Assembly (NCBI RefSeq): GCF_021190955.1 | Contig: NZ_JAIOAO010000005.1 | Span: 186,001-250,000 of the forward strand | Length of the DNA: 64,000 nucleotides | Direction of reading: 5' to 3' | Origin: Parachryseolinea silvisoli | Lineage (GTDB): Bacteria; Bacteroidota; Bacteroidia; Cytophagales; Cyclobacteriaceae | Part shown: in pieces, positions 20,716 through 24,529 of the stretch | Layout of the letters: each line of letters starts with the position of its first letter | Position numbering within the stretch: the stretch's first letter is position 1 | Notes under the pieces: generated by a model | What the model saw: only the letters and a program-made list of their open reading frames with translations | Told to the model about the DNA's origin: nothing | Database searches by the model: none | Program-made: the position numbers and the translations under genes

Positions 20716-22917
20716 TCAGATGGACGGCTTTTCGGCGCCTTCATCGAGATTGGGCGGATAGGCCGGGAAGATCACGTAGAACTCGGTGTATCCCTCCGGA
20801 GTCGTTTGCAGTCCTACCCTACCCCCAAGTTTAGCGGTAGCGGTTTTTACAATGTACAAGCCAATACCCCCGGTCTCCGAACGCTCCGACGCCCGGAAGA
20901 ACATCCGAAACAGCTTGCCCGGATTTTCTTCGCTGATGCCGATGCCATTGTCCACCACGCGCATCTTTACGTACCCCTTGTCCATCGGCAGAATGTATAT
21001 CTCCACAAACGACTCGACAGTGGCCGCCTCGTTGTAAAACTTGATGGCATTGTCGATAAGATTTTCCAGTACAATACGAATCAGCTCGCGGTCGGAACGG
21101 ATCATGGCCCGCTCGTCGATCTGCTTGCGAATCACCAACTTTTGGGGCAGGCCCTTTTTCTTTTCAAGCATGAGCACGTCGTTGACGATAGACTCGAAGT
21201 CGACCTGGCTAATGGACAACTTTGAGTTGTTGATCTGGTTAATGATCAACAATCGCGTGAGAATGGTGTTCAGTCGCTCTGCCGTGGTGTCGAGCTTGCG
21301 CAGGTAGTCGAGCGCCACGGGGTCTTTCACATCCAGCAACGCCACGTTGCACATGCCTTTAAGACTGGCCAGCGGCCCGCGAATGTCGTGCGAGGTCTTG
21401 TAGATAAAATTATCAAGCTCGTCGTTCACCTGTTTCAGTGACTGGTTGGCGCGCTCCAGGTCGACGGTCTTGGCCTCCACCTCTTTGTCGAGGTATTTAT
21501 TTTTGCTCTCTAACAATTCATTCTGTGCCTGGATAGTTTCCTTCGCTTCTGAAAGTTGGGCGTTGACACGCTTGATGGTCCGGTTGCTTCGCTGAAGTAC
21601 CAGCACCAGCATACCGGCTAACATCGCAATGATGGCAATGGCAAAGTTGAGATCGCTTTGTTGTTTGATGACCTGCTCCTTGGCGGCAATGATGCTGATG
21701 TTCTCCCGCTCTTCATAGTCCGTCTGGATGTTGGCTACGTTCCTAACAAGCTCTTCGCTGATAACGCTGTCCTTTAGCTGAATGTACTTGTTTTGGTAGA
21801 GAGACGCATTTTGGAAATCGTCTCTGCGGGTATACAGCACGGCAAATTGCTTATACGTATCCAGCAATAGCTGATCGTATCCCAATTCGGAGGAAAGCGC
21901 TTCGGCCCGTCGAAGGCTCAGCTCGGAGGCTTTGAGATCGTTCTCCTCCCGCGCCACCTGGGCCAGGTATACCATATTCTCAATTTGAAAGCGCTTGTCG
22001 TTATCCTGCCGGGCGATCTCCAGGGAGCGTTCAAAATGCCGGCGTGCTTCCTTGAACTCTCCGAGTAGAAAGTTGGACACCCCCAAACCGAAATGTGCTT
22101 CGATAAGAATGCTGAGGCTGCAGTTATCGGCGCAGATCTTCAACGCTTCGCTGATATACTTCTGCGCCTGGTGAAATTCTTCGGCGCCTGCCCCGCCGAT
22201 CTGGTTATAACACAAGCCCAGGTTGATGAGAAGCCTGTCGAGGTCGTACGTATCGTTTGCTTCGCGTTTGATATCCAGTGCCTTGGTGTAGAACTCGATC
22301 GCTTTCCCATAGTGTTTCATCTTGAAGTACACCAGGCCGATGTTGTTCAGCGCAATACTGATCTCGCTTTTTACCCCATCCCGCTCTCGGGCGATCAGCG
22401 TCTCGAAATTATACTCCAGTGCTTTTCCATAATCCGCGCGCAGGGTATATATCAGCGCAATGGAGTTCAGCAGGATTTTATTCTCGGCAGCATAGCCGTT
22501 CCTGCGGGCGATCCCCAACCCTTGTTCGGATTTTCTCAACGCCTCGTCAAGACGCTCCAGGCGTCGCAGCGCTGACGCCTCGAGCATGATGCCTTTCACG
22601 ATTCGAAGGCTATCGCCCTGGTCCCATCCAATGCGTGCGGCCTCCGTTGCGTATGACAGCGCTTCACGTTGACGCGAGTCCAGGATCAGCGCACGCGCCA
22701 GGTCATATAGTATATCAAATTTCTCGCTATCGCTCTTACCGGGCAACAAGCTCTTCAACGAGTCGATCCGCGCCGATCGTTGTTCTTGTCCACTCACATT
22801 TCCCGCTACAATCAGAAGAAGAACAATGGCGGCTAGCTTACGAAAGTTTAAAAAATTTAGGTACACGGGTGAGGTTACAAATTTTAATACGGGAAAAGAT
22901 TCAACTAAACCTGCCAA
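20716..22917 (-). CDS. TPR-containing sensor histidine kinase
   Basis: This is a membrane sensor kinase of about 733 residues. An N-terminal signal-like helix (KLAAIVLLLIVAGNVSGQ) is followed by roughly 370 residues of TPR helices (for example EISIALNNIGLVYFKMKHYGKAIEFYTKAL), probably periplasmic. Next come one membrane segment (FAIAIIAMLAGMLVLVLQ, about 425-445), a coiled coil, the HisKA box KTSHDIRGPLASL (about residue 507) and the HATPase motifs ENLIDNAIKFYNE, VVDNGIGISEE and GGIGLYIVK. It has no receiver domain, and no response regulator lies beside it. The start is uncertain; a GTG at 22866 would give a neater signal peptide. It is divergent from the small-peptide cluster at 23133. Confidence 0.92.
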   Translation of the reverse strand: MAGLVESFPVLKFVTSPVYLNFLNFRKLAAIVLLLIVAGNVSGQEQRSARIDSLKSLLPGKSDSEKFDILYDLARALILDSRQREALSYATEAARIGWDQGDSLRIVKGIMLEASALRRLERLDEALRKSEQGLGIARRNGYAAENKILLNSIALIYTLRADYGKALEYNFETLIARERDGVKSEISIALNNIGLVYFKMKHYGKAIEFYTKALDIKREANDTYDLDRLLINLGLCYNQIGGAGAEEFHQAQKYISEALKICADNCSLSILIEAHFGLGVSNFLLGEFKEARRHFERSLEIARQDNDKRFQIENMVYLAQVAREENDLKASELSLRRAEALSSELGYDQLLLDTYKQFAVLYTRRDDFQNASLYQNKYIQLKDSVISEELVRNVANIQTDYEERENISIIAAKEQVIKQQSDLNFAIAIIAMLAGMLVLVLQRSNRTIKRVNAQLSEAKETIQAQNELLESKNKYLDKEVEAKTVDLERANQSLKQVNDELDNFIYKTSHDIRGPLASLKGMCNVALLDVKDPVALDYLRKLDTTAERLNTILTRLLIINQINNSKLSISQVDFESIVNDVLMLEKKKGLPQKLVIRKQIDERAMIRSDRELIRIVLENLIDNAIKFYNEAATVESFVEIYILPMDKGYVKMRVVDNGIGISEENPGKLFRMFFRASERSETGGIGLYIVKTATAKLGGRVGLQTTPEGYTEFYVIFPAYPPNLDEGAEKPSI

Positions 22918-23132
22918 TTTTGAGGTATCAATTTAATTCTAATAAACCTATTACAAAAACATAAACCCGACAAACTCATGAAAAAGTGGCCCACCTCACA
23001 TGGCTTTCTTTCATGGTTGGCGACCCGACCACACCGACAACACGGTCTCGCAAGCGACCGCCACACAAATTGGGGTCTCCCGGGCTAACACAAACGGAAA
23101 CTATTATCGAACATATCTAACTACTACCTACT

Positions 23133-23267
23133 ATGAGAAAAGCCATTTATATACTGTTGTTTGCCTTCATTTCGAGCATAACAATTTCGGCCTGTACCGA
23201 AGAGGAGATTACGCCGGCCTGCGATGACAACGGTGGCGGTCGTGGATCGACAGATGGCCCCTTCTAA
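23133..23267 (+). CDS. small lipopeptide precursor 1 of a tandem family
   Basis: This is a 44-residue precursor. The signal part (MRKAIYILLFAFISSITISA) ends at a lipobox cysteine. The mature peptide would be a 24-residue lipopeptide beginning CTEEEITPACDD and ending NGGGRGSTDGPF. The acidic residues right after the cysteine resemble the lipoprotein export signal that sends lipoproteins to the cell surface in Bacteroidota. This copy alone has a second cysteine (C30). Its codons differ from copies 2 and 3 mostly at third positions within the conserved tail, which shows it is translated and under selection. I do not recognise the family. It is the first gene of the cluster and is divergent from the sensor kinase. 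Confidence 0.8.
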   Translation: MRKAIYILLFAFISSITISACTEEEITPACDDNGGGRGSTDGPF

Positions 23268-23313
23268 TCCCCATAAAAAAAACCTATTGACCTACTATTA
23301 AACGAATTACCAC

Positions 23314-23445
23314 ATGAAAAAAATCATCTACATCATCCTTTTTGCCCTGGTTTCAAGCGTAGCCATCACAGCCTGCACCGAAGAAGAAGTAGCCCCTACG
23401 TCTTCCAACGGCGGCGGACGCGGATCGGCAGATGGCCCTTTCTAA
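23314..23445 (+). CDS. small lipopeptide precursor 2 of a tandem family
   Basis: This is a 43-residue precursor with signal MKKIIYIILFALVSSVAITA, then the lipobox cysteine. The predicted mature part is a 23-residue lipopeptide: CTEEEVAPTSS followed by NGGGRGSADGPF. The first 77 bases of the gene are identical to those of copy 3, so the two come from a recent duplication or gene conversion, yet the middle (residues 27-31) differs completely. The C-terminal motif is the same as in copy 1. It lies 46 bases after copy 1, in the same orientation. No known family recognised. Confidence 0.82.
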   Translation: MKKIIYIILFALVSSVAITACTEEEVAPTSSNGGGRGSADGPF

Positions 23446-23567
23446 TCCCTTAAACAAAGCTTATTCACCTATACCAAACGACATACTCCCATGAAAAAAA
23501 TCATCTACATCATCCTTTTTGCCCTGGTTTCAAGCGTAGCCATCACAGCCTGCACCGAAGAAGAAGT
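23314..23567 (+). repeat. 77-bp direct repeat within peptide genes 2 and 3
   Basis: Positions 23314-23390 and 23491-23567 are identical over 77 bases, 177 bases apart. They cover the start codon, signal peptide, lipobox and TEEEV. After this the sequences diverge for a few codons and become similar again at the conserved tail. Confidence 0.9.
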
Positions 23568-23625
23568 GACACCTCAGCAGACCTTTAACGGCGGTGGACG
23601 CGGATCTGCAGACGACGCTTTCTAA
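23491..23625 (+). CDS. small lipopeptide precursor 3 of a tandem family
   Basis: This is a 44-residue precursor with the same signal and lipobox as copy 2. The predicted mature part begins CTEEEVTPQQTF and ends NGGGRGSADDAF. The change from DGPF to DDAF makes its end intermediate between copies 1-2 and copy 4 (ADQAF). It lies 45 bases after copy 2, and the spacer resembles the one before copy 2 (CCTA, then AAACGA, then ATG). Function unknown. Confidence 0.82.
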   Translation: MKKIIYIILFALVSSVAITACTEEEVTPQQTFNGGGRGSADDAF

Positions 23626-23674
23626 CCCAACCCTATCCTTATAACCATTTCCCAATATTTTGATTATCAAGACT

Positions 23675-23854
23675 ATGAAAACTAAAGTTATAATCCTCCT
23701 CGCTGCTTCGGCCCTGGTTACGTTATCGTTCACCTTTGTGACTGTACGCGGTAAAGAAGCCCCCCAGGCCGTTAAGACCGAGATCACCAACACAAGCGCT
23801 GCCGAAGCTTCAGCCCCTGCCGGCGGCTTTACCATGGCAGACCAGGCATTCTAA
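23675..23854 (+). CDS. small exported peptide 4, sharing the C-terminal motif
   Basis: This is a 59-residue protein with a hydrophobic N-terminus (KVIILLAASALVTLSFTFV) that acts as signal peptide or membrane anchor. It has no cysteine, so it is not a lipoprotein. A 25-residue low-complexity linker rich in Ala, Thr, Glu and Pro follows. The last ten residues, GGFTMADQAF, align with GGRGSADDAF and GGRGSADGPF of the three upstream lipopeptides. It therefore shares only the tail with its neighbours. The ATG at 23675 is preferred over an in-frame TTG at 23660. It follows copy 3 by 49 bases in the same orientation. Unknown family. Confidence 0.75.
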   Translation: MKTKVIILLAASALVTLSFTFVTVRGKEAPQAVKTEITNTSAAEASAPAGGFTMADQAF

Positions 23855-24483: not shown

Positions 24484-24529
24484 AAGAAAAACGCGGGAGG
24501 CCCGTTCCGAAAAACGTGCCTCCCGCGTT
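24484..24529 (-). terminator. first terminator after bioB
   Basis: AACGCGGGAGGC (24490-24501) and GCCTCCCGCGTT (24518-24529) pair perfectly over 12 bases. On the minus strand they are followed by TTTCTTTTA. The hairpin lies about 30 bases past the bioB stop codon. Confidence 0.8.

Follow-up and report, generated by a model that had tools for sequence, protein, structure and literature searches.

The window, i.e. the entire 64,000-nucleotide stretch of DNA from the 7.9 Mb genome of Parachryseolinea silvisoli that was analyzed here, contains a compact locus in which a histidine kinase gene and four tiny genes are transcribed divergently from a shared intergenic region. The locus consists of the following features:

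20716..22866, minus strand: histidine kinase with TPRs, divergent from A and B; signal helix, TPR superhelix, transmembrane helix, HisKA and HATPase are predicted
22867..23132, no strand: intergenic region between the two divergent transcription units
23133..23267, plus strand: A1, tiny lipopeptide precursor, 44 aa (24 residues from Cys21), end RGSTDGPF
23314..23445, plus strand: A2, tiny lipopeptide precursor, 43 aa, end RGSADGPF
23491..23625, plus strand: A3, tiny lipopeptide precursor, 44 aa, end RGSADDAF
23675..23854, plus strand: B, second tiny, probably exported peptide, 59 aa, end GGFTMADQAF, kept directly 3' of A

An earlier note on this DNA described the A genes as three frames of 43-44 residues with a signal peptide, a lipobox cysteine, TEEE and a common tail, and this description holds for positions 23133-23625: each of A1-A3 has a hydrophobic N-terminal stretch followed by AC and TEEE and terminates in NGGGRGS[AT]D[GD][PA]F, and, counted from the cysteine, A1, A2 and A3 comprise 24, 23 and 24 residues, respectively, in line with the 23-24 residues that had been given. 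The span assigned to this family, 23133-23854, also covers, however, a fourth gene that went undescribed, namely B, which is separated from A3 by 49 bases; the note lacked both B and the other partner, the divergent TPR histidine kinase. Downstream of the peptide genes, on the opposite strand, lies a gene that we take, from the look of its sequence, to be bioB, and the strong inverted repeat between the peptide cluster and this gene (24490-24529, 17-nt arms, 94%) is possibly the bioB terminator.

All 7 genomes searched from the genus, the window's own included, contain matches to A, and matches were also detected in other genera. At E ≤ 0.01, 14 of 59 genomes (own included) match, among which the matches in G019 and G056 sit inside frames of 280 and 361 aa and look spurious. 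Tandem copies are present in other genomes as well, and the nearest relative of the window's genome, G002, carries a counterpart of A1 at the equivalent place (dN.051, dS.558). Pooled over five genome pairs, in one of which (G198/L081) the A peptides are identical, the dN/dS ratio is about 0.17 (0.063/0.375). Given the matches throughout the genus and in other genera, the tandem copies and this ratio, the three A frames are real genes that are conserved and evolve under purifying selection. The 67 distinct A peptides are 41-57 aa long and show, by a simple rule, a basic N-terminus and a hydrophobic core together with a lipobox-like site. In 65 of the 67, at least two acidic residues occupy positions +2 to +5, which corresponds to a lipoprotein export signal; the CTEEE start, which the earlier note had read as a signal for surface export, fits the Bacteroidota rule of a polar or positive residue followed by two acidic ones, as given in PMC5080379. 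An extra cysteine after the lipobox is found in 8 of the 67 distinct peptides, including A1 of the window (23133-23267). As in the earlier note, this family could not be matched to a described one: no Pfam or NCBIfam model reached its cut-off with either A or B, and A2 scored 13.5 of 94 bits, below the curated cut-off, against a model of entericidin-like tiny lipoproteins, over residues 2-32, mostly the signal peptide. A-like tiny lipoproteins located away from the kinase were seen in two places (L025, at G004:C3:198942-199034, and G010:C151:39293-39403).

The C-terminus that had been reported as conserved is so in the window's genome and in G002, where Y replaces F; elsewhere the A peptides end in DPK, TGGH, TNGI, SERI, DDPGF, PIKE and others, and a family-wide C-terminal motif in A was accordingly rejected. 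The search for homologs in other genomes bore out the conservation of the family, also beyond the genus, but not that of its tail, which diversifies, with a tendency for the B tail to change along with it. Even within a locus, the last six residues differ among the A copies in 5 of the 15 multi-copy loci (G000, the window's genome, as well as G162, G188, G206 and G111).

The second peptide, B (49-59 aa; 48 distinct sequences), has a hydrophobic N-terminal stretch similar to that of A, without a lipobox, and by the same kind of simple rule shows a basic N-terminus and a hydrophobic core. It is conserved in the window's genus and beyond (dN.11 and dS.91 in the comparison with G002; dN/dS = 0.068/0.489 when pooled over five genome pairs). 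In 45 of the 46 loci read, B lies downstream of A, mostly less than 100 bases away; the gap exceeds 100 bases in G207, G142 and G210, where in the last case it consists of A copies missed by the filter, and in G184 the pair is duplicated in the order A-B-A-B. The motif G-G-[FL] ahead of the B tail is common in the family and might, as a guess, represent a release site.

A profile built from 36 of these same kinase-locus B peptides matched 100 of the 245 genomes of the family at E ≤ 0.01 and 43 at E ≤ 1e-7, the weaker matches (above 1e-7) being mostly inside longer frames. In 42 of the 43 genomes, compared by eye, B is on the contig of the kinase and beside it; in G252, B is on a different contig and the kinase is near a contig start. 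No match at E ≤ 1e-7 away from the kinase was seen elsewhere in the 245 genomes and, because the profile was made from kinase loci, this absence is the informative part of the result. A kinase-TPR match at E ≤ 1e-40 is present in 46 genomes, and in 42 of them the profile detected B; the four others are G120, with a frame of 449 aa, G168 and G227, where the place is at a contig edge, and G025, which has only a lipoprotein. The B peptides of G009, G184, G189 and G237 fall short of 1e-7. Three relatives of the kinase, in G025, G094 and L083, have A and no recognized B.

The kinase consists of about 716 aa when read from a GTG start at 22866, a position taken from an alignment to congeners starting with VYQ (as called mechanically, the open reading frame begins at 22917), and matches the Pfam models for TPRs (TPR_12, 3.4e-24), HisKA and HATPase. 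The sensor is located between the signal helix and the transmembrane helix and therefore probably faces the periplasm. In the structure model it forms a TPR superhelix (pLDDT 89), and the solved structures closest to this model in fold are LGN and KLC1, each complexed with a peptide, the TPR domain of OGT and the quorum sensor NprR (apo); the sequence profile of the sensor yields a similar list, with the addition of Rap proteins. Many long TPR arrays would match LGN, KLC and OGT, so this likeness of fold points to a plausible groove rather than to binding. Arrays of sensor paralogs without a kinase adjoin the peptide locus in three genomes (L043 9630-17735 in G006, L333 5913-11552 in G185 and L334 8282-13015 in G158) and are found on another contig in a fourth (G021:C12:671669-681275). 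By Pfam, the five paralogs of G006 contain TPRs and no HisKA, with a signal-like N-terminus, a stretch resembling a transmembrane segment and about 100 more residues, whereas those of G185, G158 and G021 are classed as kinase-less by a search for the H-box motif. These paralogs are possible decoy or alternative receptors. Genes that, by eye, we take to be response-regulator-like adjoin the arrays (L333 12408-13064 and 14118-14783 in G185; L334 5968-6597 in G158) and are candidates for the output partner.

With the TPR part of the kinase as the query, 86 of the 245 family genomes (own included) matched at E ≤ 1e-20. Upstream DNA was examined at 110 such places, which do not include the 7 weakest matches listed, G009 and G010 (viewed separately) and the contig-edge fragments G203 and G072:C385, and divergently transcribed tiny lipoproteins were counted by a single rule that was written after the family had been seen. 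Such a lipoprotein is present at all 39 close kinases (E ≤ 1e-40, classed as full-length, at least 450 bp upstream), of which 38 have frames of at least 683 aa and one, G001, is cut by a contig end (440 aa); for the 30 best loci, the frame length was set by hand as full, G120 excepted. The fraction is 7 of 21 for full-length kinases from 1e-40 to 1e-25, 0 of 18 for weaker ones and 2 of 15 for short frames at E ≤ 1e-40 (G072 and G208, cut or interrupted in the assemblies). As background, 2 of 143 other open reading frames of at least 200 aa in 32 fetched loci are preceded by a divergent tiny lipoprotein. The kinase and the peptides stay together in G006, G009 and G010, where much of the remaining neighborhood differs.

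Close kinases were seen almost exclusively in the family. A sample of 390 genomes of the order, own family included, yielded 15 genomes with a match to the kinase at E ≤ 1e-25, 14 of them within the family and the single one outside it, G281, weak. A contig scan with generic kinase patterns returned at least 80 loci, and among the 31 viewed the best four kinases (L080-L083) are accompanied by the lipoprotein, and L084, L091, L099 and L104 (TPR part at 22-24%) are not; the locus is thereby also found in metagenome genomes of Cytophagales and Cyclobacteriaceae (L080, L081), and the A peptide of L081 is the same as that of G198 in the window's family. A divergent lipoprotein as a rule for TPR kinases in general is unsupported: none of 30 FimS-like TPR kinases fetched from the phylum, all of which score below the 600-bit FimS cut-off, has one, although two (L372, L377) have another tiny hydrophobic frame. 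The best FimS-like TPR kinase of the window's genome (G000:C7:1220684-1222399), which is distinct from the window kinase, has no tiny lipoprotein upstream (L366).

Comparison of 27 loci shows recurring flanks that look like housekeeping genes, presumably metG, bioB, sppA and typA as recognized from their sequences, and much of this flank is also conserved in the window's genus and in several others. No modifying enzyme, protease or dedicated transporter was seen to recur beside the module in the 27 loci, in agreement with what the earlier note had stated for the peptide genes; the sppA gene, by name presumably a signal-peptide peptidase, is two genes away in the window and is taken as an ordinary neighbor. 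The kinase is the only recurring neighbor of a suitable kind in these loci. Where the earlier note left the choice between display and signaling, the presence of a divergent TPR histidine kinase as the constant neighbor tips the reading towards signaling.

The tails of A and B, while differing between species, are often alike within a locus: SEKI/SEKI (G245), SERV/SERI (G149), SERI/SERI (G218), FERI/LERI (G093), KDDPGF/KDDTTF (G239) and KDDGTF/KEDASF (G134) are examples of A/B pairs, the window's genome has DGPF and DDAF in A and DQAF in B, and in G002 the pair is DGPY/DQAY. This likeness was first spotted by eye and then tested, with B assigned by position, not by tail. Over 47 loci, the identity of the last four residues between A and B is 1.05, compared to 0.46 with B shuffled (p = 5e-5), and at the level of the 13 genus labels p = 3.5e-4; with shuffling within genera only, the values are 1.08 and 0.67 (42 loci, p = 5e-5). 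This set leaves out G168, G163, G025, G094, G157, G113, G091, G116, G222, G106, G252, L083 and G010, with no usable B in view, and L082, a duplicate of G208. After removal of five near-duplicates (42 loci), the similarity over residues -1 to -6 is 2.85, compared to -2.71 in permutations (z = 7.4, p = 1e-4; z = 5.0 and p = 1e-4 for 37 loci shuffled within genera). Residues -7 to -12 show a marginal excess over all genomes (z = 1.8, p = 0.04) and none within genera (z = 0.35, p = 0.36), and residues -13 to -18 show no A-B matching (p = 0.92 overall and 0.85 within genera), so that a genome-wide residue bias as the source of the matching is unsupported.

The signal over residues -1 to -6 persists without the ERI clade and G000/G002 (p = 1e-4 overall, 2e-4 within genera), and the use of all four A copies of G210, instead of the one in the set, gives the same result. 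A weaker signal than that of the full set is also given by the 15 loci that were listed only once the pattern was known (p = 0.004; p = 0.018 for the last four residues; p = 0.0035 without G166 and G208); their control region, -13 to -18, again shows no matching (p = 0.91). The A and B tails are unlike in several genomes (G198, G258 and G030). Gene conversion as the cause was rejected because about half of the shared tail residues (50 of 94) are encoded by different codons, including all four of SERI in G218. Thus, the last six residues of A and B tend to be held alike at the amino acid level while both diverge between species, which suggests that a single partner, perhaps the TPR sensor, reads both tails as a signal; the earlier proposal that the function of A resides in its tail appears probable.

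Co-divergence with the kinase itself is only suggestive. In partial Mantel tests on 41 genomes, the B tail distances correlate with the TPR distances given those of the kinase domain and of the peptide N-termini (r = 0.32, p = 0.001), and the A tail does so with all controls at r = 0.084 (p = 0.035); however, once the kinase domain is controlled for, the N-termini of A and B track the TPR distance as well (0.34 and 0.31), so we attach little weight to these values. The plain Mantel correlation between the A and B tails is 0.128 and drops to near zero given the TPR distances.

Taken together, these observations are best accounted for, we believe with somewhat better than even confidence, by the locus being a peptide-sensing module in which A and B are putative ligands of the TPR sensor and binding of their tails sets the activity of the kinase. 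The kinase would carry its superhelical TPR domain outside the inner membrane, with A, lipid-anchored, and B, secreted or held by its N-terminal helix, as small exported peptides. The groove of the periplasmic TPR domain would be the tail reader, recognizing the free C-terminus, the last six residues or so, of either peptide, and binding would alter kinase activity. The tail would then serve as a lineage-specific address common to A and B, presented in different places: by A at the outer membrane and perhaps, given that 65 of the 67 A peptides start acidic like exported lipoproteins, at the surface, and by B in the periplasm. The same acidic start also counts against this ligand reading because surface export would take A away from a periplasmic sensor. 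So do the genomes in which the two tails are unlike, the loci whose A copies differ in their last six residues and the kinase relatives that have A and no recognized B. A bolder version, in which the module mediates Gram-negative peptide communication, with a periplasmic TPR kinase reading a free six-residue C-terminal tag in two forms (lipid-anchored and possibly surface- or vesicle-borne; soluble or in the inner membrane), pherotype-like tags and kinase-less TPR copies as decoys, is conceivable, and we hold it only tentatively.

The same data can be read in other ways. The kinase might switch on the peptide genes, A and B being its outputs, with the tails read by some other common machine, for instance a protease specific for such tails, a factor for export or sorting, or a target located on other cells. 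The divergent arrangement would allow the kinase to regulate the peptides, and tail matching calls for one shared reader that need not be the kinase; nevertheless, we consider this rather unlikely given that no protease or exporter recurs beside the module, where the recurring flanks look like housekeeping genes, that the B tail diverges with the TPR region and not with the kinase domain (a weak test), and that the sensor fold resembles peptide-binding TPR proteins. Less likely still, A could report on the state of the envelope in the manner of RcsF or NlpE: A would normally be cleared from the periplasmic face through the surface-export route, and when lipoprotein traffic stalls, A would pile up in the periplasm and its tails would trip the TPR kinase, with B as an antagonist or reference ligand. 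The two or more acidic residues at +2 to +5 in 65 of the 67 distinct A peptides fit the export signal outlined in PMC5080379, and the position of the sensor between the signal helix and the transmembrane helix makes it probably periplasmic, but such a mechanism alone leaves unexplained both a non-lipidated peptide with a similar tail and the diversification of the tails between species.

Finally, the A genes could encode lipopeptides with a plain display role at the surface or a structural one, and the kinase could be adjacent through ancestry only. Conservation of much of the flank in the window's genus and several others is what common ancestry would give; yet the linkage outlasts the changes of flank in G006, G009 and G010 and holds in genera with other neighbors, the 30 FimS-like TPR kinases have no such genes, and display alone does not predict the matching of the A and B tails. 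The linkage and tail data thus already disfavor this explanation, which we regard as very improbable. 

The putative module in which A and B are ligands of the TPR sensor resembles, without duplicating, several known systems. The RRNPP systems of Firmicutes (Rap, Rgg, NprR, PlcR, PrgX) likewise couple a gene for a small exported propeptide with an adjacent gene for a TPR receptor, and their codes differ between lineages. The five criteria used to recognize them in PMC10075063 are propeptide size, export, a TPR receptor, receptor size and cytoplasmic location, and adjacency. Both A (41-57 aa) and B (49-59 aa) are within the 10-100 aa range, their export is probable from sequence, the window kinase contains TPRs (Pfam TPR_12, 3.4e-24; model), and the genes are adjacent in 39 of the 39 close kinases with enough upstream DNA; in contrast, the receptor is not a cytoplasmic protein of 250-500 aa; it is a histidine kinase, comprises about 716 aa and has both a signal helix and a transmembrane helix. 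With size, TPRs and adjacency in agreement and the size and location of the receptor at odds, the module is RRNPP-like rather than a member of RRNPP; it further differs in having a membrane histidine kinase with probably periplasmic TPRs, a Gram-negative host, and two kinds of peptides with similar tails, one of them lipid-anchored.

The architecture of the kinase, i.e. a periplasmic TPR sensor (predicted as such in the window), transmembrane helices and a histidine kinase, is that of FimS from Porphyromonas gingivalis, the signal of which was, according to PMC11053733, still unknown in 2024, with the suggestion that its TPRs may bind a polypeptide. The window kinase is not itself a FimS by the model NF053520 (142 bits, cut-off 600). 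In ComCDE and Agr, as in the present proposal, a histidine kinase in the membrane reads an exported peptide and there is a pherotype-like diversity, but their receptors are polytopic membrane sensors and their peptides undergo dedicated processing, whereas here the sensor is predicted as a TPR superhelix and no gene for processing was seen to recur beside the module in the 27 loci. With its 49-59 aa, probable export, single hydrophobic stretch and short outer tail, and with a kinase next to it, B also resembles small protein regulators of sensor kinases such as MgrB of PhoQ; however, MgrB is not known to be tail-matched to a lipopeptide and is not always beside its kinase. A literature search that covered few subscription papers found no description of such a module, with peptides as ligands of a TPR kinase, from Bacteroidota.

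Histidine kinases with a TPR sensor are found across Bacteroidota, and for the one described here evolution suggests candidate ligands: two tiny, probably exported peptides of unlike build that are always beside the kinase in the genomes examined and the last six residues of which tend to vary together. If the proposal is correct, the module would correspond, in Gram-negative bacteria, to the pairs of propeptide and TPR receptor known from Firmicutes, the natural matched and mismatched tails would be available for tests of specificity, and there would be a route to the ligands of other TPR kinases and hence to what these kinases sense.
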